Origin: Pedobacter arcticus A12
GTDB taxonomy: Bacteria > Bacteroidota > Bacteroidia > Sphingobacteriales > Sphingobacteriaceae
Direction of reading: 5' to 3'
Length of the DNA stretch: 64,000 nt
Assembly (NCBI RefSeq): GCF_000302595.1
Contig: NZ_JH947126.1
Location: 94,454 to 158,453 of the forward strand
Shown here: one piece after another, positions 21,161-33,832 of the stretch
Numbering within the stretch: position 1 is the stretch's first letter
Layout of the letters: each line of letters opens with the position of its first letter
Made by a program: the position numbers and the translations under genes
The notes under the pieces: model-generated
Database searches by the model: none
What the model saw: only the letters and a program-made list of their open reading frames with translations
What the model was told of the DNA's origin: nothing

Positions 21161-23542
21161 ATGACACAAATTTCAGTAAAATTTAAACTAGTCGTTTTTC
21201 TGCTGCTTTTATCTAGCGCTTTATTGGCCCAAGAAAAAGTAACAGTAAGCGGTATAATAACAGATAAGTCCTCGTCAGAATCTTTAATAGGCGTAAGCGT
21301 TTATATTAAAGAAATTAAAAGTGGAACCACTACCAACGAATATGGGTTTTACTCTTTAACCGTACCAAAAGGCAACTATACACTCAATATCGGGTATATA
21401 GGTTTCGTAAGCCAAGAGTTTTCGCTTCCACTTGCACAGAGTGTGAAAAAGGATTTCTCATTGGTAGCTAACCAACAAACTTTAGCAGAAGTGGTGGTAA
21501 ATAGCGATAAAAGTATCGCAGAAATACGAAGACCGGAAATGAGCATCAACAAACTATCCGCCAGGGAAATTAAACAGATGCCCGTGGTTTTAGGCGAGGT
21601 TGATGTGATAAAATCTATCCTACAATTGCCCGGAGTTACCAATGCAGGCGAGGGACAATCGGGTTTTAATGTGAGAGGCGGAGGAGCAGATCAAAATCTG
21701 ATTCTTTTAGATGAAGCCACCATTTACAACTCATCGCACCTATTCGGCTTCTTTTCTGTTTTTAATGCCGATGCCATTAATGATATCAAACTTTACAAGG
21801 GTGGTATCCCTGCTCGCTTCGGTGGGCGCTTATCATCGGTTTTAGATATTTACCAGAAAGAAGGTAACAAAAACGATTTAAAATTTAGTGGCGGCATTGG
21901 ATTGGTTTCTAGCAGGTTAATGGCAGAAGGGCCAGTTAACCAAGGAAAAGGTTCTTTTCTGATTGCCGGAAGGAGCTCTTATGCCCACTTGTTTTTAAAG
22001 CTTACAGATATTAAAAGTTCTGCCTATTTTTATGATTTAAATACAAAGATCAGCTATAAAATCAATCTAAAAAACAGTCTTTATTTATCAGGATACTTTG
22101 GACGCGATGTTTTTAACCTGAACAAAGATTTTGTAAATATTTACGGCAACTCTGTATTTAATGTTCGTTGGAACAGGCTTTTTAACAACAAGTTATTCTC
22201 TAACCTTTCGGTGATTTATAGCGATTACTATTTCGGTTTAGAGATTGGCCTTGCCGAGTTTAAATGGTCTAGCGGCATTAAGAATCTAAATTTAAAGTAC
22301 GATTTTAAACATTACATCAATAATAATTTAAAACTCACCTACGGACTTAACGCTCAGCATTATAATTTTAACCCCCGAACTATAGATCCAACAACATCAA
22401 CATCACAATTTAATAAAGAGCAGTTGGCTAAAAAGTATGCTATAGAACCAGCTGTTTACTTGGATGTTGAGCAAAATGTATCTAAGAAACTATCTGTAAA
22501 TTACGGACTGCGCTATAGTTTATTTTACCGAATGGGACAAAAAGATGTATTGACTTATGCCAATAATGAAGCTGTTAAGTTTAATAACGACTTAAAAATC
22601 TACGAAAAAGCCACACCTACAGGCGTAAAAAATTATAAAAATAATGAAACCATAGCCAGTTTCAACAACTTGGAACCTCGGCTAGCAATTTCTTACGCTT
22701 TAGATGATGACCATTCTATAAAAACCAGTTATAACCGGATGACGCAGTATTTGCATTTGATCAGCAATACGCAATCGCCCACTCCTTTAGATATTTGGGC
22801 ACCAAGCGATCAGTTTTTAAAACCTCAAACATTAGATCAATATGCCATCGGTTATTTTCAAAATTTCAAAGAAGATGATTATTCTTTAGAGGTAGAGAGT
22901 TTTTATAAACACATAAACAACAAGGTAGATTATATTGACGGAACGGATTTTATAGCCAACAAAGCGATAGAGCAAGTAGTTTTAAACGGAATTGCAAGAT
23001 CGTACGGCTTGGAACTGATGTTGCGGAAAAACGTAGGTAGATTAACAGGTTGGGTTTCCTACACCTTATCTAGATCTGAACAACAAACACCAGGCAGAAC
23101 AGCATTAGAAATAGGAATTAATAACGGAGCTTGGTACAAATCAGCATCAGATAAACTGCATAATGTAGCCATTACAACCACTTATAAATGGAATGATAGA
23201 TGGCGTTTTGGATCGATTTTCAGCCTGCAATCTGGGCAACCGGTTACGTATCCACAAAGTAAATATAAATATCAAGACATAGATATTCCAAATTACGGTT
23301 TACGTAATAAAAATAATTTGCCTTTATACCATCATTTGGATGTTTCTGGAACTTATACCCCAAAACCAAAAAAACAAAGGAACTGGCAAGGCGAGTGGGT
23401 TTTTAGTATTTATAATATCTACAACCGACAAAACGCTTCAGCAATTGCTTTTGCACAGAACGTTGAAACTGGCAAAAACGAAGCAAAACGACTGTCTATT
23501 TTCGGCGCTGTACCCAGTTTTACATATAATTTCAAATTCTAA
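21161..23542 (+). CDS. TonB-dependent outer-membrane receptor with carboxypeptidase-like N-domain
   Basis: The 793-residue protein has a signal peptide ending ALLAQ, a CarboxypepD_reg-like domain (about residues 27-110: VSGIITDKSSSESLIGVSVYI), a plug domain (PGVTNAGEGQSGFNVRGGGADQNLILLDEATIYN) and a 22-strand barrel ending in FTYNFKF with a terminal Phe. Such receptors import large substrates through the outer membrane using TonB energy. It is shorter than SusC proteins and has no SusD partner. A DUF4249 lipoprotein follows after 4 bases, a pairing I know from Bacteroidota. The substrate is unknown. Confidence 0.9.
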   Translation: MTQISVKFKLVVFLLLLSSALLAQEKVTVSGIITDKSSSESLIGVSVYIKEIKSGTTTNEYGFYSLTVPKGNYTLNIGYIGFVSQEFSLPLAQSVKKDFSLVANQQTLAEVVVNSDKSIAEIRRPEMSINKLSAREIKQMPVVLGEVDVIKSILQLPGVTNAGEGQSGFNVRGGGADQNLILLDEATIYNSSHLFGFFSVFNADAINDIKLYKGGIPARFGGRLSSVLDIYQKEGNKNDLKFSGGIGLVSSRLMAEGPVNQGKGSFLIAGRSSYAHLFLKLTDIKSSAYFYDLNTKISYKINLKNSLYLSGYFGRDVFNLNKDFVNIYGNSVFNVRWNRLFNNKLFSNLSVIYSDYYFGLEIGLAEFKWSSGIKNLNLKYDFKHYINNNLKLTYGLNAQHYNFNPRTIDPTTSTSQFNKEQLAKKYAIEPAVYLDVEQNVSKKLSVNYGLRYSLFYRMGQKDVLTYANNEAVKFNNDLKIYEKATPTGVKNYKNNETIASFNNLEPRLAISYALDDDHSIKTSYNRMTQYLHLISNTQSPTPLDIWAPSDQFLKPQTLDQYAIGYFQNFKEDDYSLEVESFYKHINNKVDYIDGTDFIANKAIEQVVLNGIARSYGLELMLRKNVGRLTGWVSYTLSRSEQQTPGRTALEIGINNGAWYKSASDKLHNVAITTTYKWNDRWRFGSIFSLQSGQPVTYPQSKYKYQDIDIPNYGLRNKNNLPLYHHLDVSGTYTPKPKKQRNWQGEWVFSIYNIYNRQNASAIAFAQNVETGKNEAKRLSIFGAVPSFTYNFKF

Positions 23543-23546
23543 GATT

Positions 23547-24374
23547 ATGAAAAATAAATATTTTTTGTTGATGTTGTTTTGCATTTTAATATTTAGCAGT
23601 TGCGAAAAAGTAATTGATGTTAAATTAAGCACAGAACCATCTCGTTTAGTTGTTGACGCTACTTTAAGTTGGGTAAAAGGCACTAACGGCAAAAGCCAAT
23701 CAGTTTTTTTAAGCACTACTACTAGTTATTATAGTCAAGAAATTCCCAAAGTATCTGATGCAATAGTTTATATTAACAACAGCACCAATACCAAATTTGA
23801 GTTTTTGGAAGAAACTGCTACAAAAGGGAAATACACTTGTGCCAATTTTTCACCCGTAATTGGCGAAAATTATACACTTACCATTGTTTATAAGGGAGAA
23901 ACTTATAAAGCTCAAGAAAAACTAACGTCGGTTAGCCCGATTGAAAATGTAGAGCAAAGGTCAGATTTGGGAATAAATAGAGACGAATATGGGATAAAAG
24001 TGAACTTTCAAGACCCTATTGCTCAAAATAATTTTTATTTAGTGAGGTTTGTAACTTCGACCTCTGCTTTTCCGAGTTTCGAGGTATTTCATGACCAGTT
24101 TTTTGATGGAAAGAAAGGGTTTGGACTCTATGGAAGTGATAAGCTTAAAAAAGATGACGCTATTGAAATTAAACTGAACGGAATTTCTGAAAGATATTTC
24201 GACTATATGAAAAAACTTACAGCTACTGCCAGTGGTGGCGGAGGTGGACCTTTCCAGCCAACACCATCATCTGCTATAAGAGGAAACGTGGTTAACCAAA
24301 GTAATGAAAGCAATTTCTGCTTAGGATATTTTAGTGTATCAGAAACGGATATTTTAACGTATACCGTGAAATAG
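23547..24374 (+). CDS. DUF4249 family lipoprotein
   Basis: The 275-residue product begins with MKNKYFLLMLFCILIFSSCEK, a lipoprotein signal (lipobox FSSC), and shows the DUF4249 pattern VIDVKLSTEPSRLVVDATLSW, SDAIVYINN, GENYTLTIVYKGETYKA and a distal NFYLVRF. It has a Gly-rich stretch near residues 230-240. The ATG at 23547 is the correct start; a longer in-frame reading from 23340 would overlap the receptor gene by 200 bases. DUF4249 proteins are coded next to TonB receptors and probably act with them at the outer membrane, perhaps as a surface-exposed partner. Confidence 0.88.
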   Translation: MKNKYFLLMLFCILIFSSCEKVIDVKLSTEPSRLVVDATLSWVKGTNGKSQSVFLSTTTSYYSQEIPKVSDAIVYINNSTNTKFEFLEETATKGKYTCANFSPVIGENYTLTIVYKGETYKAQEKLTSVSPIENVEQRSDLGINRDEYGIKVNFQDPIAQNNFYLVRFVTSTSAFPSFEVFHDQFFDGKKGFGLYGSDKLKKDDAIEIKLNGISERYFDYMKKLTATASGGGGGPFQPTPSSAIRGNVVNQSNESNFCLGYFSVSETDILTYTVK

Positions 24375-26759: not shown

Positions 26760-26892
26760 ATGTTGTTTCAAAGCGTAAATGGTCTTTTTTTTTAAATCAA
26801 TAAAATAAATTGAACTGAAGGTAGGGGTAAAATGAACTAAGCGTGTTATCAATTAAAAGAAGGATAAAAATCTTTTAAACCATTGATAACAA

Positions 26893-29253
26893 ATGAAACA
26901 TTTTAAACTTTTATTATTTTTTTGGATATTCTTTGCGTCAAAGCTTGTTGCGCAAAACCATACCATCATCAAAGGAATCATCACAGATAAACAGTCTAAA
27001 CTACCCTTGCCTGGTGTTACTGTGAGCATTAATTCTTTAAATCCACCTAAATACACCGTTACAGATGCCGACGGTCGCTTTCGTTTTGTGGATGTAACTG
27101 TTGGAAGACACAACTTAGAAGCTGCAATTATTGGCTACCAAAAAACGGTAATAGCAGAAGTGCTGCTGAGTTCTGGAAAAGATTTAGAAATCAATATCGA
27201 ATTGGAAGAACAGTTAAACAGTTTAAGCGAAGTTGTGGTTTACAGTGCAAAAAACAAAAGTGCATTAAACCCGATGGCTAGTGTTAGTTCGCGGTCTTTT
27301 TCTGTGGAAGAAACCAGTAGATATGCTGCCGCTTTGTTCGATCCTGCCCGTATGGCGCAAAGTTTCGCCGGAGTTGCCGCTGCCGAAGATGACAATAATA
27401 TTGTGATTAGGGGAAATGCCCCCAAGTCTGTTTTGTGGCGATTAGAAGGCATAGAGATTTTCAACCCCAATCATTTTGCAGATGAAGGTGCCGCAGGAGG
27501 AGCCATCAGCATGATAAATTCGAACGTGATTGGTACTTCTGATTTTTATACCGGAGGCACTCCGTCTGAGTTTGGAAATACCATTTCTGGTGCATTTGAT
27601 TTACAGTTTAGAAAAGGAAATACCGACAAAAGCGAATATTCTTTGATGCTAGGCGTACTTGGGGCAGCAACATCATTAGAAGGTCCATTTAAAAAAGGCG
27701 GAAAATCTTCTTACTTATTCAGCTACCGCTACTCTTCTTTAGCTTTGTTAGATAAGATAGGGCTTTCTCTTTCCGATGTGGGCATCCCCATTTATCAAGA
27801 TGTTTCCTACAACTTTGTTTTTCCAACTAAAAAGGTAGGTACTTTCTCTTTATTTGGAATAGGAGGGAACAGCAAAGTTGAGGATAAAGCAATAAGAGAC
27901 CATACAAAATGGAAGGAAAGAAATGATTATGCCGATCAGAAATTCACCTTTAATTCGGGAAACGCAGGTTTAAAACATGTATTAATCTTGAACGATAAAA
28001 TGTTTTTAAAAAACACCGTGGTTTATTCAAAAAGCCAGAATACGGATAAAGTTGACACCCTTAGACAAAATTATGACACCGATATTTACAGCAGAAACGA
28101 TTATAAAAATGGTGCAATCCGTTATAGTGGTCAGTTAAATTATAACCCTAACGCCAATAATACCATCCGCAGCGGGGTAACAGCTTCTTTTTTGGATTAT
28201 AATTTGAAAGGTTTAGAATATAATTACCAAAAACAGGCTTTAAATGAGGTATTAAACAAAAAGGGCAATGCCAGTTCAATAGATGCGTATAGCCAGTGGA
28301 AACATAATGTTAGCGAGCAATTGAGTTTTAACGTAGGTGTGCATACCAATTACTTTAGCTACAGCAGTAATTTTTACGTTGAACCACGCTTAAGCTTAAA
28401 TTGGTGGGTAAAACCCGATCAGCAAATTTCTTTAGGTGTGGGGGCTTACAGCCGATTAGAACCTTTAGCCTATTATTTTGCAAATGATGAATTAACATCA
28501 TCAGCTTACTACAGCGCCAAAAAATTAAAACCGACACGTTCTGCCGAGGTTGTTCTGGCTTACGAGAAGATTTTGGGCGAGACTTTGAAATTTAAGGCAG
28601 AAACTTACTATCAACACCTTTATAAAGTGCCGGTTTCAAACAACCCAAACTATAATTTCTCTACGATAAATGCGTCTAGCATAGGTGCAATTTTCGCCAC
28701 AGATTACAGCCCTTTGGTAAACCAAGGAACCGGCAGAAACTATGGTTTAGAGTTAACTTTAGAAAGGTCGCTAAACAAAGGTTATTACTTCCTAATCACC
28801 ACTTCAATTTTCGACTCCAAGTATAAAAACTTAGCTGGAAAGGAATTCAACACCACTTTTAACAGCCATATCATGGGTAATTTTGTAGCAGGAAAAGAAT
28901 GGCAGGCCGGTAAAAACGGAAAGAATATTTTTGGTGTAAACGGAAAAGTGATCTATACCGGAGGAAGAAAGTACACCCCAATTTTATTGGAAGCGTCAAG
29001 AGCCCGACAAGAACAGGTAAATGACGAAAAGAAAGTAAATACGCTTACCGCTGATCCTTACTTTAGAGTCGATTTTTCTAGTAGTTATCGAATAAACAGA
29101 GCCAAAGTTTCGCATACTTTTTTTATTGATGCACAGAACCTGTTAAACCGGGTAAACAATCTGGGTTACTATTATGATTTAGATACCAAAAATTTAAAAA
29201 AGAACAATTTAGGAGGTGTTATTCCCGTATTGAACTATCGCTTAGAGTTTTAG
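26893..29253 (+). CDS. TonB-dependent receptor at the head of a FecI/FecR cluster
   Basis: The 786-residue outer-membrane protein has a signal peptide ending LVAQ, a CarboxypepD_reg-like domain (IIKGIITDKQSKLPLPGVTVSI, about residues 25-105), a plug (about 125-230: FAGVAAAEDDNNIVIRGNAPKSVLWRLEGIEI) and a barrel ending YRLEF. It has no STN domain at the N-terminus, although sigma/anti-sigma genes follow directly. In canonical Fec-type systems the receptor itself carries that signalling domain. Here STN sits in the protein coded at 30888. No SusD follows. Confidence 0.9.
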   Translation: MKHFKLLLFFWIFFASKLVAQNHTIIKGIITDKQSKLPLPGVTVSINSLNPPKYTVTDADGRFRFVDVTVGRHNLEAAIIGYQKTVIAEVLLSSGKDLEINIELEEQLNSLSEVVVYSAKNKSALNPMASVSSRSFSVEETSRYAAALFDPARMAQSFAGVAAAEDDNNIVIRGNAPKSVLWRLEGIEIFNPNHFADEGAAGGAISMINSNVIGTSDFYTGGTPSEFGNTISGAFDLQFRKGNTDKSEYSLMLGVLGAATSLEGPFKKGGKSSYLFSYRYSSLALLDKIGLSLSDVGIPIYQDVSYNFVFPTKKVGTFSLFGIGGNSKVEDKAIRDHTKWKERNDYADQKFTFNSGNAGLKHVLILNDKMFLKNTVVYSKSQNTDKVDTLRQNYDTDIYSRNDYKNGAIRYSGQLNYNPNANNTIRSGVTASFLDYNLKGLEYNYQKQALNEVLNKKGNASSIDAYSQWKHNVSEQLSFNVGVHTNYFSYSSNFYVEPRLSLNWWVKPDQQISLGVGAYSRLEPLAYYFANDELTSSAYYSAKKLKPTRSAEVVLAYEKILGETLKFKAETYYQHLYKVPVSNNPNYNFSTINASSIGAIFATDYSPLVNQGTGRNYGLELTLERSLNKGYYFLITTSIFDSKYKNLAGKEFNTTFNSHIMGNFVAGKEWQAGKNGKNIFGVNGKVIYTGGRKYTPILLEASRARQEQVNDEKKVNTLTADPYFRVDFSSSYRINRAKVSHTFFIDAQNLLNRVNNLGYYYDLDTKNLKKNNLGGVIPVLNYRLEF

Positions 29254-29292
29254 GAGGTAAAAAATTATATTTGAAACTTAAAAGCAAAATTT

Positions 29293-29874
29293 TTGAAAGC
29301 TGAAATAAACCTAATCTATCAAATTAATACTGGTAACGAGCTGGTATTTGAGAAAGTATTTAAGCAATATTTTAAGGCATTGCAAAACTATGCATATACT
29401 ATTTTGAACGATTTAGATATTGCCGAAGAAATGGTACAAAATGTTTTTCTAAAAATTTGGGAGAAGAGAGAAAAATTACCACAAGATGCTCTCATCGGCA
29501 GTTACCTATATAAATCAGTTTACCACGAAAGCTTAAACTGGTTAAGGCATGAAAAAGTTAAGCGTTCACATCAACAGCACACTTTGTACAGCATGAAAGA
29601 TGAAACCGACAATGCCGAAAATCACATCAAAATGAAACAGTTAGAGGAACAGCTACAAAAAGCATTGAACAAATTGCCTCAACAATGCCGTACTATTTTT
29701 CAGATGAGCCGTTTTGACGAATTGCGTTACCGCGAAATAGCAGCAGAATTGGGTATATCCATTAAAACGGTAGAAAACCAGATGGGGAAAGCGCTTCGCT
29801 TAATGCGCTTAAAATTGGTGGAGTTTTTACCCGTAATGATAGGCCTCATCAACTCAATTTTTATATTAAAATAA
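29293..29874 (+). CDS. ECF-type RNA polymerase sigma factor (FecI-like)
   Basis: The 193-residue protein has region 2 (VFEKVFKQYFKALQNYAYTIL, then DIAEEMVQNVFLKIWEKRE) and region 4 (LPQQCRTIFQMSRFDELRYREIAAELGISIKTVENQM), typical of Bacteroidota ECF sigma-70 factors. The start is a TTG: no ATG occurs before region 2, and region 2 begins right after it. A hydrophobic tail (FLPVMIGLINSIFILK) follows region 4. TATATTTG at 29266-29273 matches a -7 promoter box 19 bases upstream of the TTG. FecR follows 8 bases after the stop. Confidence 0.9.
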   Translation: MKAEINLIYQINTGNELVFEKVFKQYFKALQNYAYTILNDLDIAEEMVQNVFLKIWEKREKLPQDALIGSYLYKSVYHESLNWLRHEKVKRSHQQHTLYSMKDETDNAENHIKMKQLEEQLQKALNKLPQQCRTIFQMSRFDELRYREIAAELGISIKTVENQMGKALRLMRLKLVEFLPVMIGLINSIFILK

Positions 29875-29882
29875 CCACGGAG

Positions 29883-30830
29883 ATGACAGACGAAAAGATA
29901 ATTAAATTTTTATTGGGAGAAAGCTCTGAGGCTGAAAATATAGAGATTAAGAATTGGCTAGCTGCTGATGCAAAACATCAAAAGTATTTTGAAGAAATGC
30001 AATTGATTTGGGATACCAGCAAAAACTTAGACGCACAACATTTAGAAGATGAAGACCTAGCTTGGGAAAAATTTAAAGCTAAAGCTGATGAAAGAAAAGC
30101 AGTTCAATCAAAAATAAATAGATTCAATTGGCTTAAAATTGCCGCTTCATTGGTTTTGGTAAGTACAAGTTGCTGGTTTGGCTACCAACATTTCAAAACC
30201 CCAGAAATGATGACTATAACAACTGCCACAGCAACAGATACCGTTATTTTGCCAGATGGGTCTGAAGTTAAACTTAATAAATATTCTACTTTAAGGTATC
30301 CGGAACAGTTTAAGGGAGAAAAAAGAGAAATTTTTCTCACTAAGGGAGAAGCGTTTTTTACGGTAACTCCTAATAAAGAAAAACCCTTTATCATCCAAAC
30401 CAAAGACATTACGGTTAGGGTAGTGGGGACTTCTTTTAATGTGAAATGCGGAGCAGAAGAAACGGAAGTAATTGTGGCTACCGGAACAGTGAAGGTGAAC
30501 CAGAAAAATGACGAAATCAGCTTGCAACCAGGGGAAAGAGTCACCGCACATCATCAAAATTTAAAACTAAAAAAAGAACCAGTTCCCGACCAGTTGTATA
30601 ACTATTATTTCACTAAAACCTTTGTAGCTAACGGAACACCTTTATGGCGAGTTGTAGAGGTTTTAAACGAAGCGTACGCGGTTAAAATTGTGATTGAGAA
30701 TGATGAATTAAAGAATCTACAACTCACTAGCACCTTTAAAAATGAATCTTTGGATCAAATCCTAAGGGTTTTAGAAGAAACTTTTCATCTTCAAATCGTC
30801 AAGGAAAACAATCTCATTATCATAAAATAA
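29883..30830 (+). CDS. FecR-family anti-sigma factor
   Basis: The 315-residue protein has an N-terminal cytosolic anti-sigma segment with a conserved IKNWLAADAKHQKYFEEMQLIW, one membrane helix (WLKIAASLVLVSTSCWFGY, about residues 82-100), the periplasmic FecR domain (TVILPDGSEVKLNKYSTLRYP, then FIIQTKDITVRVVGTSFNV) and a C-terminal DUF4974 domain (LTSTFKNESLDQILRVLEETF). It would hold the sigma factor inactive until signalled through its periplasmic part. Its partner is most likely the STN-bearing protein at 30888. Confidence 0.92.
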   Translation: MTDEKIIKFLLGESSEAENIEIKNWLAADAKHQKYFEEMQLIWDTSKNLDAQHLEDEDLAWEKFKAKADERKAVQSKINRFNWLKIAASLVLVSTSCWFGYQHFKTPEMMTITTATATDTVILPDGSEVKLNKYSTLRYPEQFKGEKREIFLTKGEAFFTVTPNKEKPFIIQTKDITVRVVGTSFNVKCGAEETEVIVATGTVKVNQKNDEISLQPGERVTAHHQNLKLKKEPVPDQLYNYYFTKTFVANGTPLWRVVEVLNEAYAVKIVIENDELKNLQLTSTFKNESLDQILRVLEETFHLQIVKENNLIIIK

Positions 30831-30887
30831 ACTAAAAAATCAGTTCAAACCTTAATCCTTCTGCCTAATACCTTAAACCTTAAGAAG

Positions 30888-32699
30888 ATGTTAAAAAATA
30901 TATTATTATTAGTAGCAATTTATAGCGTTACTCCAGCCACTTATGCCCAAAATAATTTAGCAAAACGTATCACTATCAATGCGCAAAACGAACATTTACA
31001 AAACGTTTTACAAGAACTCAGTAAAAAGGGCGAATTTACTTTCTCATACAACACCAGCATTTTACCAAAAGACAGCTTGGTAAGCTTAAAAGCATATAAT
31101 ATGATGGTACAAGATATTTTAGACTCCTTACTAAACGGAAATTTCGAATATAAAGAGGCTTCTAATTATGTGGTTTTAAGGCCCTGTCCCAATAGTTTAT
31201 CGTTAATTCCAGAAAAATCAGAACCACTAGGTCGTAAATACGTGGTTTCGGGTTATATTATTGACAATGCAAATGGGCTTAAAATAAAAGATGCCAGTGT
31301 ATATGATAAGCAATTGTTAAAAAGCACACTAACGGATCATCAAGGTTATTTTAAGCTCAAAATAAAAACAAATAACCAAGCCATTAGGTTAACCGTAACT
31401 AAGGATCAGTATAAAGAAATTACAGTTACCATGTTACCTGCAGTAACAGTCGGCAGAAACGACTCAGCCCAATATGGCTTTCAGCCGGGCAACGGAGTTA
31501 TCGCTACTTATTTCGGAAAAGTATTTGTTTCCTCTAGGCAAAGAGTGCAAAATATAAACTTAGCCGGTTTTTTTAGTCAAAGCCCGGTTCAGGTTTCTTT
31601 TATTCCGGGTTTAAGTACGCATGGTTTTTACAACTCACAAATGGTGAATACGGTTTCTTTAAATGCTTTGGCAGGATATTCTGCCGGAGTTAACGGGGTA
31701 GAATTGGCCGGGTTGTTTAACGTGAATAAATATAATGTAAAGAATTTTCAGGGAGCTGGCTTAATCAATACGGTAGGAGGGACGGTTGATGGTGTGCAAT
31801 TGGCCGGTATTGGAAATGTGGTGTTAGATAGCGTTCAGGCTTTTCAAGGAGCGGGCATATTTAATGCGGTAAAATCTAATTTTTCGGGAGTGCAAATGGC
31901 AGGTATTGTGAATGCCAATAAAGGGACGCTGAATGGGACACAGATGGCAGGTATCGCAAATTTAAGTGGTAAACAAGTCAAAGGGACGCAACTGGCAGGT
32001 ATTGTTAATGTAAGTGTTAAAGGATTAAAAGGAGCTCAATTTGCAGGAATTGGCAATACCACTATTAAACCAGTAAATGGCTGGCAAATGGCAGGAATCT
32101 ACAATGTATCTGTGGATAGTTTAAAAGGTGGTCAATTGGCTGGAATTGTAAATTATACAAAGAAGTTAAAGGGCTTTCAGATGGGTTTAGTGAATATTGC
32201 TGACACATTAGAAGGAGTAAGTTTGGGATTGCTGAATTTATCTAAAAACGGCTATCACAAATTAGCAATTTCAAGCAATGAGGTTACCAACGTTAATCTT
32301 GCTTTAATTACGGGAAATGCAAAACTATATACTGCAATTAGGGCTGGGTACAACCTATCTGATACGGCAAAAGTTTTTAGTTTTGGAGTAGCCATGGGCC
32401 ATGATTTTGTATTGAGCAAAAAGTTGGCAATAGGTGCGCAGATGAGTTATGATCAGCTTTATTTAGGTTCATGGAAGCATAGCAGTTCATTAGTTAAGGC
32501 AGGAACTAATGTACAATTACAGTTAATTAAAGGTTTAGCGCTGTTTGCTGGCCCTTATTATAACGTTTATTTTACCAACCAAACCAATAAGTTTAAAAAC
32601 TACAGCTATCCAATATTAAACAGGGGTTTAGCTTACCACAGTTATAGCAACAAGGTAAAAGGATGGATAGGATTTGAAGCTGGGATTAGGCTTTTTTAA
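30888..32699 (+). CDS. STN-domain protein with LA_2272-like GxQxAGIxN surface repeats
   Basis: The 603-residue exported protein has an unusual domain order. A signal peptide (MLKNILLLVAIYSVTPATYAQ) comes first. An STN domain (about 25-110: ITINAQNEHLQNVLQELSKK) is the part that FecR proteins sense in Fec systems. Next is a carboxypeptidase-like domain (about 120-185). From about residue 268 to 455 come roughly 12 repeats of 14-17 residues with consensus GxQxAGIxN. A C-terminal part (about 465-603) of amphipathic strands could be a small barrel. The repeats resemble those of LA_2272-type Leptospira surface proteins. There is no TonB-receptor plug. It follows FecR by 57 bases and ends the sigma-factor cluster. 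I infer it is the sensor or a surface partner of the receptor; nothing shows its ligand. Confidence 0.78.
   Translation: MLKNILLLVAIYSVTPATYAQNNLAKRITINAQNEHLQNVLQELSKKGEFTFSYNTSILPKDSLVSLKAYNMMVQDILDSLLNGNFEYKEASNYVVLRPCPNSLSLIPEKSEPLGRKYVVSGYIIDNANGLKIKDASVYDKQLLKSTLTDHQGYFKLKIKTNNQAIRLTVTKDQYKEITVTMLPAVTVGRNDSAQYGFQPGNGVIATYFGKVFVSSRQRVQNINLAGFFSQSPVQVSFIPGLSTHGFYNSQMVNTVSLNALAGYSAGVNGVELAGLFNVNKYNVKNFQGAGLINTVGGTVDGVQLAGIGNVVLDSVQAFQGAGIFNAVKSNFSGVQMAGIVNANKGTLNGTQMAGIANLSGKQVKGTQLAGIVNVSVKGLKGAQFAGIGNTTIKPVNGWQMAGIYNVSVDSLKGGQLAGIVNYTKKLKGFQMGLVNIADTLEGVSLGLLNLSKNGYHKLAISSNEVTNVNLALITGNAKLYTAIRAGYNLSDTAKVFSFGVAMGHDFVLSKKLAIGAQMSYDQLYLGSWKHSSSLVKAGTNVQLQLIKGLALFAGPYYNVYFTNQTNKFKNYSYPILNRGLAYHSYSNKVKGWIGFEAGIRLF
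31691..32250 (+). repeat. Array of about 12 diverged 42-51-base repeats coding GxQxAGIxN
   Basis: Within the STN protein gene the successive units read GVELAGLFN, NFQGAGLIN, GVQLAGIGN, AFQGAGIFN, GVQMAGIVN, GTQMAGIAN, GTQLAGIVN, GAQFAGIGN, GWQMAGIYN, GGQLAGIVN, GFQMGLVN and GVSLGLLN. Spacing is 14-17 residues. DNA identity between units is only moderate (GGAGTGCAAATGGCAGGTATT-like cores), so the array is old rather than freshly amplified. The geometry suits a beta-solenoid or stacked beta-hairpins. Confidence 0.85.
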
Positions 32700-32766
32700 T
32701 AGCTGCTTTATTTCTTAACACAAGTTCATCAAGTTTATGGTGTTTAACTCGTTACCAGCTCATTTC

Positions 32767-32810
32767 TTAACTTAAGTTAATGGATTTCTATATTTCAGAA
32801 CATAGCTTTG
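32767..32810 (+). promoter_or_regulatory. Palindromic operator plus TAnnTTTG promoter of the OmpX-like gene
   Basis: TTAACTTAAGTTAA (32767-32780) is a perfect 14-bp palindrome. TAGCTTTG (32803-32810) is a -7 element exactly 22 bases after it, the same spacing as at 21093-21136. The flanking TCATTTC before the palindrome is also shared by both sites. Transcription would start near 32817, leaving a leader of about 57 bases. Confidence 0.6.
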
Positions 32811-32873
32811 TATCTGTTAATTAAACATCGACACACCATAATTTCAACCTCAAAACAATAATTAAAATATCCA

Positions 32874-33401
32874 ATGAAAAAACAATTAAAAATTTCACTT
32901 GTATTACTATTTTTCGCATTCAACGTTCAAGCCCAAAATGGAGGGTTTAACAAAACTGATAACTTATTAAATATTGGGATTGGTATTAACTCCTTTTATG
33001 ACAGCGGTGTTCCTTTTGGAGTGTCGTTTGAAAAGGGCATTCATGAAAACATCAGTGTAGGTGCAAATTTCGATTATCTGGCTACAGATTTTAGTTCGAG
33101 CGGAACAGATTTGAAATTCACCGCAATTTATCTAGCGCTGAGAGGTTCTTATTATTTCAATAATTTATTAAAAATTTCAAGTCAAAAAATAGATCTATAT
33201 GGCGGTCCGTCCGTTGGATATCGTATATTTTCTTGGAAAGACGATTTCAGTGGCTCTTTAAGTAGCAAGTATGGAAGTGGCCTTTTTATCGGTGTTCACA
33301 TTGGTGGCAAATATTATTTCACTGACAAAATTGGTGGTTTTTTAGAACTGGGAGACATTGGCTCTACCAATGCAAGGTTAGGGGTGGCTTTCAAGTTTTA
33401 G
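32874..33401 (+). CDS. OmpX-like outer-membrane beta-barrel protein
   Basis: The 175-residue product has a signal peptide (MKKQLKISLVLLFFAFNVQAQ) followed by about eight alternating amphipathic strands (LLNIGIGINSFYDSGVPFGVSFEKGI, ISVGANFDYLA) and a C-terminal strand ending in Phe (ARLGVAFKF), the usual outer-membrane assembly signal. Size and pattern fit a small eight-stranded porin-like barrel. No transported solute can be proposed. It has its own promoter with the palindrome described above and precedes a lipoprotein gene by 38 bases. Confidence 0.82.
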   Translation: MKKQLKISLVLLFFAFNVQAQNGGFNKTDNLLNIGIGINSFYDSGVPFGVSFEKGIHENISVGANFDYLATDFSSSGTDLKFTAIYLALRGSYYFNNLLKISSQKIDLYGGPSVGYRIFSWKDDFSGSLSSKYGSGLFIGVHIGGKYYFTDKIGGFLELGDIGSTNARLGVAFKF

Positions 33402-33439
33402 ATTTAAAATTTTCACTTATTAACATAAAATAAACACCT

Positions 33440-33832
33440 ATGAAAAATTCAATTGTAAAATTAGCCTTATTCTGTACCGTTGGTTTAAGCACCCTAAATT
33501 CCTGCAGTAAAGATGATGATTCAAATAGTGACAGCCGGAATGTGAAGTACGAAATAACCGGAAATGCAACAGGTACTTTTGATGCTACGTATATTACCGG
33601 TTCTGGTTCTGGAGCAAACGAAGCACCAACCGCTTTACCTTGGTCAAAAGAAATTGTGGTACAAGCGGGAATTGCGAAAGTAATAATCAATTCGGCCGTA
33701 ATCGGCGCAACTCCAGGTAAAACAATTACCACCAAAATTTTTATTGGTGGAGTTGTAAAAAAAGAACAATCGGCAGTAGTACAATCTAATGGATCTGCTA
33801 TTATTGCCGGATTGGATTATACTTTTAAGTAG
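33440..33832 (+). CDS. Small lipoprotein with a beta-sandwich-like C-terminal domain
   Basis: The 130-residue product has a lipoprotein signal ending LSTLNSCSKDDD. Asp/Ser after the lipidated Cys resembles the surface-export signal described for Bacteroidota lipoproteins. The remainder (VKYEITGNATGTFDATYITG..., then KIFIGGVVKKEQSAVV) looks like an MmpS-type or transthyretin-like beta-sandwich. I cannot name the family with certainty. It is likely co-transcribed with the barrel gene 38 bases upstream, so a role at the outer membrane is plausible. Confidence 0.7.
   Translation: MKNSIVKLALFCTVGLSTLNSCSKDDDSNSDSRNVKYEITGNATGTFDATYITGSGSGANEAPTALPWSKEIVVQAGIAKVIINSAVIGATPGKTITTKIFIGGVVKKEQSAVVQSNGSAIIAGLDYTFK

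Follow-up and report, generated by a model that had tools for sequence, protein, structure and literature searches.

The window analysed here, a stretch of 64,000 nucleotides from Pedobacter arcticus A12, carries at positions 26893–33832 six genes that include an extracytoplasmic function (ECF) sigma factor, a FecR anti-sigma regulator and a protein with GxQxAGIxN repeats (Table 1). In most of the Fec-type signalling described, sensing and TonB-driven import are coupled in a single receptor. A frame check placed all six reading frames at the coordinates and in the order given by the initial annotation, and a domain search bore out its statement that the receptor-type protein at this locus has no STN signalling domain. 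This receptor has a CarboxypepD_reg-like domain at residues 26–116 and matches plug only weakly (E 0.054, below the cut-off), and a search of solved structures with it gave no match. The sigma factor scored 163 bits against Sig70_bacteroi1 (cut-off 126.4), and the regulator matched both FecR (77.2 bits) and FecR_C (54.9 bits) above their cut-offs. The FecR family profile also matched chain R of PDB entry 6ovk (E 3.8e-11) over profile positions 131–318, most of the periplasmic part; we take this entry to be PupR bound to the signalling domain of PupB. The gaps between the first four genes (Table 1), followed by one of 174 bases before the OmpX-like gene, fit a single operon of receptor, sigma factor, FecR and STN-repeat protein ending at 32699. 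A sequence-based scan for sigma-70 promoters and terminators was uninformative: it gave 28 promoter-like sites where shuffles gave 25.1, and 6 terminator-like sites where they gave 5.7.

Table 1. Genes, domains and promoter-like site of the locus, in positions of the window
Feature	Position	Strand	Basis or remark
ECF-type promoter-like site, TAGGGGTA-N13-GTGTT	26822..26847	+	45 bases 5' of receptor start codon
TonB-dependent-receptor-type protein, 786 amino acids, N-terminal CarboxypepD_reg-like domain, without STN	26893..29253	+	domain search
ECF sigma factor, TIGR02985, Sig70_bacteroi1	29293..29874	+	profile search; 39 bases after receptor
FecR anti-sigma regulator, FecR and FecR_C domains	29883..30830	+	domain search; 8 bases after sigma factor
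STN-repeat-barrel protein, proposed transducer, 603 amino acids	30888..32699	+	domain searches, model; 57 bases after FecR
STN domain, residues ~24–101	30957..31190	+	Pfam 50–99; strands and helices of model 27–99; profile comparison
Carboxypeptidase-regulatory-like beta-sandwich, residues ~117–182	31236..31433	+	domain search; 50/50 relatives
16-residue GxQxAGIxN repeats, predicted beta-solenoid-like stack, residues ~254–452	31647..32243	+	model, spacing
Predicted 8-strand outer-membrane barrel, residues ~456–602	32253..32693	+	model, Foldseek
OmpX-like barrel, neighbour, judged outside the system	32874..33401	+	no match in other 139 loci
Small lipoprotein-like protein, neighbour, judged outside the system	33440..33832	+	no match in other 139 loci

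The STN domain that the initial annotation had assigned to the repeat protein falls below the Pfam cut-off in the window sequence itself (residues 50–99, E 1e-5, 25.7 bits, cut-off 28.4) but is clear in relatives. At the level of sequence profiles the assignment of a receptor-transducer type STN domain to this family is firm, because 41 of 50 aligned relatives match at E ≤ 0.01 (best 5.3e-14) and an hhalign comparison of 138 repeat-protein STN regions with 6 receptor STN regions gave a probability of 98.8 (E 4.8e-17), against 0.2–3.7 in four control comparisons with the carboxypeptidase-like domain or the N-terminus of an STN-less paralogue described below. Between the STN domain and the repeats, both of which had been recognised before, lies a carboxypeptidase-regulatory-like domain that had been missed; it is matched by all 50 aligned relatives at E ≤ 0.01, and the window protein scores 32.1 bits against CarbopepD_reg_2 at residues 120–181 (cut-off 32.2). 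The window protein matches no Plug family, as the initial annotation had stated, and none is matched at this threshold by the 50 relatives; with its eight predicted C-terminal strands the window protein has neither the plug nor the 22-strand barrel of TonB-dependent transducers. The repeats, previously counted as about 12, comprise eight strict GxQxAGIxN motifs, compared with a mean of 0.07 in 1000 shuffles, and four degenerate ones that are in register with them by eye. Across 138 relatives, consecutive motifs are 16 residues apart in 479 of 713 intervals and 32 apart in 147, so that the repeat number varies by whole coils. The window protein also scores above the cut-off of the NCBIfam model LA_2272_repeat (28.8 bits, cut-off 25).

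An AlphaFold model of the repeat protein built from the 50 aligned relatives (mean pLDDT 84.7, pTM 0.58) contains an STN fold at residues 27–99 and a beta-sandwich at about 117–182, with a weakly predicted linker (pLDDT below 50 at 186–200 and 222–252). Each 16-residue repeat is modelled as one strand of seven and one of four residues, with pLDDT mostly 95–98 from about residue 300, and we read the repeats as a predicted solenoid-like stack because these strands are too short for membrane crossing. The C-terminus is predicted to form eight strands, the last five of 13–15 residues, which supports the small barrel suspected previously: a Foldseek search of the model against the PDB returned the small barrels NspA (0.003, the best hit), OprF (0.025) and OmpA, as well as the STN-like N0 domain of PilQ (0.047). 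No match in this search reached E 0.001, and the 50 hits listed include no solenoid. Since the two ends of an 8-strand barrel are normally on the periplasmic side, the repeat stack would in this model more likely be periplasmic than surface-exposed.

A protein search with the repeat protein hit 94 of 201 genomes of the window's family at E ≤ 1e-10, and 75 of them at E ≤ 1e-50; the matches weaker than 1e-50 are at least partly STN receptors. Its gene neighbourhood was surveyed in a set of 60 loci (59 stretches around the family-genome matches plus the window) and a set of 80, the best 80 of 228 relatives from an alignment scan of public genome contigs. Genes were labelled with profiles built in this analysis; one gene labelled as a repeat protein, L155_17, is cut at the end of its locus and was taken for a receptor, a 100-base dummy stretch (L088) was left out, and two loci with split or contig-cut repeat proteins (L077, L078) were omitted from the full-length and twin sets. 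Sigma factor, FecR and repeat protein were contiguous on one strand in 58 of the 60 loci, window included, and in L075 and L086 the repeat protein lies on the opposite strand, close to the sigma-FecR pair. The pair was directly upstream of the repeat protein in 68 of the 80 public-contig loci; of the remaining 12, two run into the end of a contig, one has a short spurious frame in between and nine, all from Flavobacterium, have no FecR at that place. The two sets overlap, with some genomes in both, so 58/60 and 68/80 are not independent; together they give adjacency in 126 of 140 loci. The repeat protein is thus as a rule coded next to FecR, and the initial view that it, and not the receptor, carries the STN domain which should touch FecR is supported. 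Hosts in the best 80 of 228 include Pedobacter, Mucilaginibacter, Niastella, Longitalea, Chitinophaga, Taibaiella, Dyadobacter and Flavobacterium, among others. Sampling across the phylum gave matches at E ≤ 1e-30 in 60 of 395 genomes; among the matches listed, the STN region was reached in 17 of the 60 genomes, all of the window's class, and the others listed cover repeats and barrel only. Two Bacteroides plasmids, NZ_OY725937.1 and NZ_CP081918.1, code for a repeat-barrel relative without the STN part (~28% identity, query residues 268–603) that is annotated as hypothetical.

The genome of P. arcticus A12 holds 13 FecR domains and 13 STN matches (three below cut-off, that of the repeat protein among them), and, going by position and strand, every FecR has one STN within ~1 kb of it. 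Twelve of the STN domains occur in frames of 1,099–1,196 residues, which from frame length alone we take for SusC-type receptors, and the 13th is that of the repeat protein. This complete pairing indicates that the repeat protein fills the transducer slot. Two features by which FecR signalling was judged are present in the window, an ECF sigma factor adjacent to a protein with FecR and FecR_C domains and an STN domain in a partner coded beside FecR; a third, that the STN-bearing partner be a TonB-dependent receptor with plug and large barrel, is not. Neither a second copy of the repeat protein nor an STN-less paralogue was found in this genome, where the only other match (E 1.3e-8, residues 3–180) is in a frame of 1,186 residues.

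Elsewhere such a paralogue is frequent: a shorter protein of 300–420 residues without STN, here called the twin, is coded in the same locus in 48 of the 80 public-contig loci. None of 32 twins matched Pfam STN at E 0.01, and a twin model shows repeats and barrel strands as in the repeat protein, with PDB hits of the same kind. Also recurrent is a gene of ~218 residues, found in 51 of 138 loci, and both of the members that were scanned are DUF2807 'head GIN' proteins.

Motif discovery by gapped-word counting was carried out upstream of the twins (33 non-redundant regions) and of the module sigma genes (69), the receptor upstream regions playing no part in it; regions shorter than 80 bases were excluded from discovery and those shorter than 150 bases from the count by gene class. 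The word GGGT-N15-TGTC was present in 22 of the 33 twin and 26 of the 69 sigma regions, where shuffling gave at most 8 and 11. A looser motif, sought in the 300 bases before same-strand genes in the vicinity of the module, was found in 45 of 110 non-redundant loci (138 less 28 repeat proteins at ≥ 90% identity), whereas reversed and complemented controls gave 0 and 0. In this count it headed twins (35), sigma genes (11), receptors (8) and other genes (3). Another form of the motif precedes 42/80 twins, 13/127 module sigma genes and 11/70 receptors, compared with 0/141 repeat proteins and 12/2062 other genes, and the motif precedes 10 of the 15 receptors associated with a module. The strict motif has one match in the window (0.02 expected), the site in front of the receptor, and this is also the only match in the 4.23 Mb genome, where the reversed control has 2; a looser pattern has three matches there against seven for its control. 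Genome-wide, 11 of 30 matches with a locus head a twin, a receptor or a FecR-receptor pair. In one genome (L322, G058) an exact site away from the module precedes, by 38 bases, a gene of 200 residues; the next gene, of 265 residues, resembles the dehydrogenase that neighbours other modules, and the two are a possible distant target.

It appears that in many Bacteroidota a repeat-barrel protein, and not an import receptor, works the Fec-type switch, with a receptor or a twin as the output. For the window we favour, as probable, a self-amplifying Fec-type module in which the transducer is not a TonB-dependent receptor and the STN-less receptor is the output. The repeat protein would be anchored in the outer membrane by its C-terminal barrel, and on the periplasmic side its STN domain would reach FecR. 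A signal received at the barrel or at the stack of repeats would alter the STN-FecR contact, FecR would be cut or rearranged, and the ECF sigma factor thereby freed would read a promoter of the form TAGGGGTA-N12..14-KTGTY. Such a promoter would head the operon of receptor, sigma factor, FecR and STN-repeat protein in the window, making the receptor an output and allowing the module to amplify itself; in relatives the output would more often be the twin, and also a lipoprotein. In PupB-PupR and FoxA-FoxR, proteolysis is controlled through a periplasmic encounter between STN-type domains of the transducer and of the anti-sigma factor (PMC7186176, PMC11637429), and by analogy FecR should be held or released by the STN domain of the repeat protein. 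The lack of a plug speaks against the repeat protein being driven directly by TonB.

Several observations weigh against this interpretation, besides the sub-threshold STN match of the window protein. The motif is absent from 65 of the 110 non-redundant loci, and as a finder of genome-wide regulons it fails, with 33 matches in 18 genomes against 47 for the reversed control. An exact site also stands before FecR in three of six receptor-type modules, ahead of the FecR-receptor pair; the motif therefore does not name its sigma factor and, judged from these sites, is the property of a group of related sigma factors and not of the repeat type alone. Distances among STN domains and among the periplasmic parts of FecR correlate at 0.79, no better than those of other module pairs (0.66–0.83). 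Lastly, in 9 of 11 Flavobacterium loci the repeat protein has conserved STN positions and no linked sigma-FecR pair, and the nine genomes hold only a distant FecR elsewhere (best 34–38% identity), compared with 64% identity between the FecR proteins of the two Flavobacterium that keep a linked one. The initial annotation had named a repeat protein routinely coded apart from FecR as grounds for giving up its reading; this is the situation in these nine loci, whereas elsewhere the protein as a rule stands beside FecR. Either a distant FecR acts in trans in these strains or the STN domain has another use. In the loci concerned (L128, L132, L136, L142, L143, L145, L151, L152 and L162) a divergent gene of 472 residues adjoins the solitary STN-repeat gene, and in L121 and L139 sigma factor and FecR are in front of it. 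As to the receptor-type modules, L201, L203 and L204 have the site TAGGGGTA-N-TGTC between sigma factor and FecR, and FecR with the STN-bearing receptor may there form a sigma-driven unit with the sigma gene itself outside it.

The initial annotation had suggested a split sensor, with import by the receptor and signalling through FecR by the repeat protein, and this idea is partly supported. A true split sensor, in which the STN-less receptor binds a ligand and signals sideways to the repeat protein and through it to FecR, neither working alone, we regard as unlikely, and the distribution of the receptor bears on it in both directions. Members of the window receptor's family (E ≤ 1e-40) were found in 15 of 140 loci, without exception inside the module or adjoining it, and in four arrangements; the receptor lies two genes after the repeat protein in 12 loci, just before the sigma gene in the window and L097 and divergent from it in L051. 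In L097 (6003-8383, Mucilaginibacter sp. Bleaf8) it stands between twin and sigma gene and is split in two frames with 51% and 56% identity to the window receptor. The other 125 loci have no member of the family within ~10 kb, and any receptor at all is present within 4 genes of the module in only 19 of the 80 public-contig loci. Since most modules are without a nearby receptor, we take it for one possible output and not for half of a fixed sensor. The survey of co-occurrence that had been suggested found the receptor in 25 of 75 genomes with the repeat protein versus 12 of 126 others (Fisher p 3.6e-5, kinship ignored), and the repeat protein is present in the genomes of all seven close STN-less receptors (that of the window counted), versus 75 of 201 genomes overall; yet six of these seven (L194–L197, L199, L200; 796–811 residues) are coded far from it and away from FecR. 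A common promoter would account for the association without contact. The motif scores 11–12 of 13 positions before five of the seven (window, L196, L197, L199, L200) and 10 of 13 before those of L194 and L195, the latter no better than chance, compared with 8–9 of 13 directly in front of six STN-bearing receptors.

Rather less likely still is that the STN domain of the repeat protein mainly oligomerises or meets other partners, as in secretins, with FecR governed otherwise and the adjacency a matter of co-regulation only. The nine Flavobacterium loci that conserve STN residues without a linked FecR would suit this explanation, as would the binding of secretin STN domains to one another (PMC11637429), but all nine exceptions belong to a single genus and have to be set against the 13/13 pairing of FecR and STN in the window genome and the adjacency in 126/140 loci.

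A recent shuffling of domains in this lineage, by which the STN domain passed from the receptor to the repeat protein beside it, is highly improbable: close receptor relatives with STN and an adjoining sigma-FecR pair do exist in six genomes (L198, L201–L205), two of the same genus, but the STN-repeat protein spans Pedobacter to Dyadobacter, Niastella and Flavobacterium, genome G108 has both kinds of module (L048 and L203), and the window FecR clusters with repeat-type and not receptor-type FecR proteins. The idea that the STN domain had been moved from the receptor was accordingly rejected. In the FecR tree, from which 12 identical rows had been removed (143 to 131) and in which many deep forks are unresolved, the window sequence groups with that of L054, a repeat-type module (SH-aLRT 96), and the receptor-type FecR proteins group together apart from it (SH-aLRT 99). 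The receptor tree requires 2 STN changes and is compatible with one origin; it does not settle gain versus loss of STN.

A wider scheme extends the favoured module with its repeat-barrel transducer, and we offer it tentatively, at a little under even chances. A TonB-independent class of repeat-barrel proteins, its repeats varying by 16-residue coils, would report on the outer membrane or the surroundings to FecR. Its outputs, namely STN-less twin, head-GIN lipoprotein and STN-less receptor, would be exchanged between lineages by way of one motif, and the receptor family would switch between having its own STN with sigma-FecR and being served by the repeat-barrel switch, with no STN and the motif in front.

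Like FecI-FecR-FecA and PupI-PupR-PupB, the window system has an ECF sigma factor, a regulator with FecR and FecR_C domains and an STN domain in a neighbour-coded partner lying partly in the outer membrane. Unlike in those systems, the partner has a carboxypeptidase-like domain, repeats and a small barrel in place of plug and large barrel, and the receptor that is present has no STN. With the SusC-type STN receptors beside FecR (12 of 13 FecR loci in the window genome, typed by frame length) it shares an N-terminal STN and carboxypeptidase-like domain; plug and receptor barrel are missing, and the remainder comes from another family. The repeats are those of the LA_2272 and VC2662 families (NF047436, NF047437), matched by 47 and 35 of 50 relatives, but these models cover the repeats only and their descriptions give no STN or signalling role. 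The precedent for a non-receptor transducer is VreA of PUMA3 (VreA-VreI-VreR) in Pseudomonas aeruginosa, which bears an STN domain and is not a TonB-dependent receptor; it has ~240 residues, is mostly soluble and has a TolA/TonB-like C-terminal domain and no barrel (PMC2729926). Set against that description, the window protein is not of VreA type, with its 603 residues, carboxypeptidase-like domain, repeats and predicted outer-membrane barrel, and the repeat-barrel module recurs across several Bacteroidota families. We found no description of the repeat-barrel type, and recognised none of an STN-repeat transducer beside FecR, in the literature searched, in which subscription journals were thinly covered.

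If a plug-less repeat-barrel protein does the sensing, signalling and import are separable and the signal need not be an imported ligand; for many Bacteroidota FecR systems no ligand could then be assigned from a receptor. The module is common (75/201 family genomes at E ≤ 1e-50) and occurs in culturable genera with a predicted promoter, which makes it testable with reporters.

Membership of the OmpX-like and lipoprotein genes, which the initial annotation had included in the cluster, was rejected, since none of the other 139 loci has a match to either. Of four loci examined around OmpX-like relatives in other genomes of the family, three (L210, L212 and L213, not L211) have the two genes side by side without sigma-FecR, and the window lipoprotein matches Pfam Mycobact_memb (31 bits, cut-off 21). 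Recurrent neighbours of the module, with one member of each scanned, are a DUF6134 protein (30 loci), a fatty-acid-hydroxylase/DUF4833 protein (26) and a short-chain dehydrogenase (20). Upstream in the window, 21161-24374 codes for a second STN-less receptor of 793 amino acids with a good plug match and, after it, a DUF4249 lipoprotein. Read from its first start (23340), the lipoprotein frame overlaps the receptor, and the true start is probably at ~23547.

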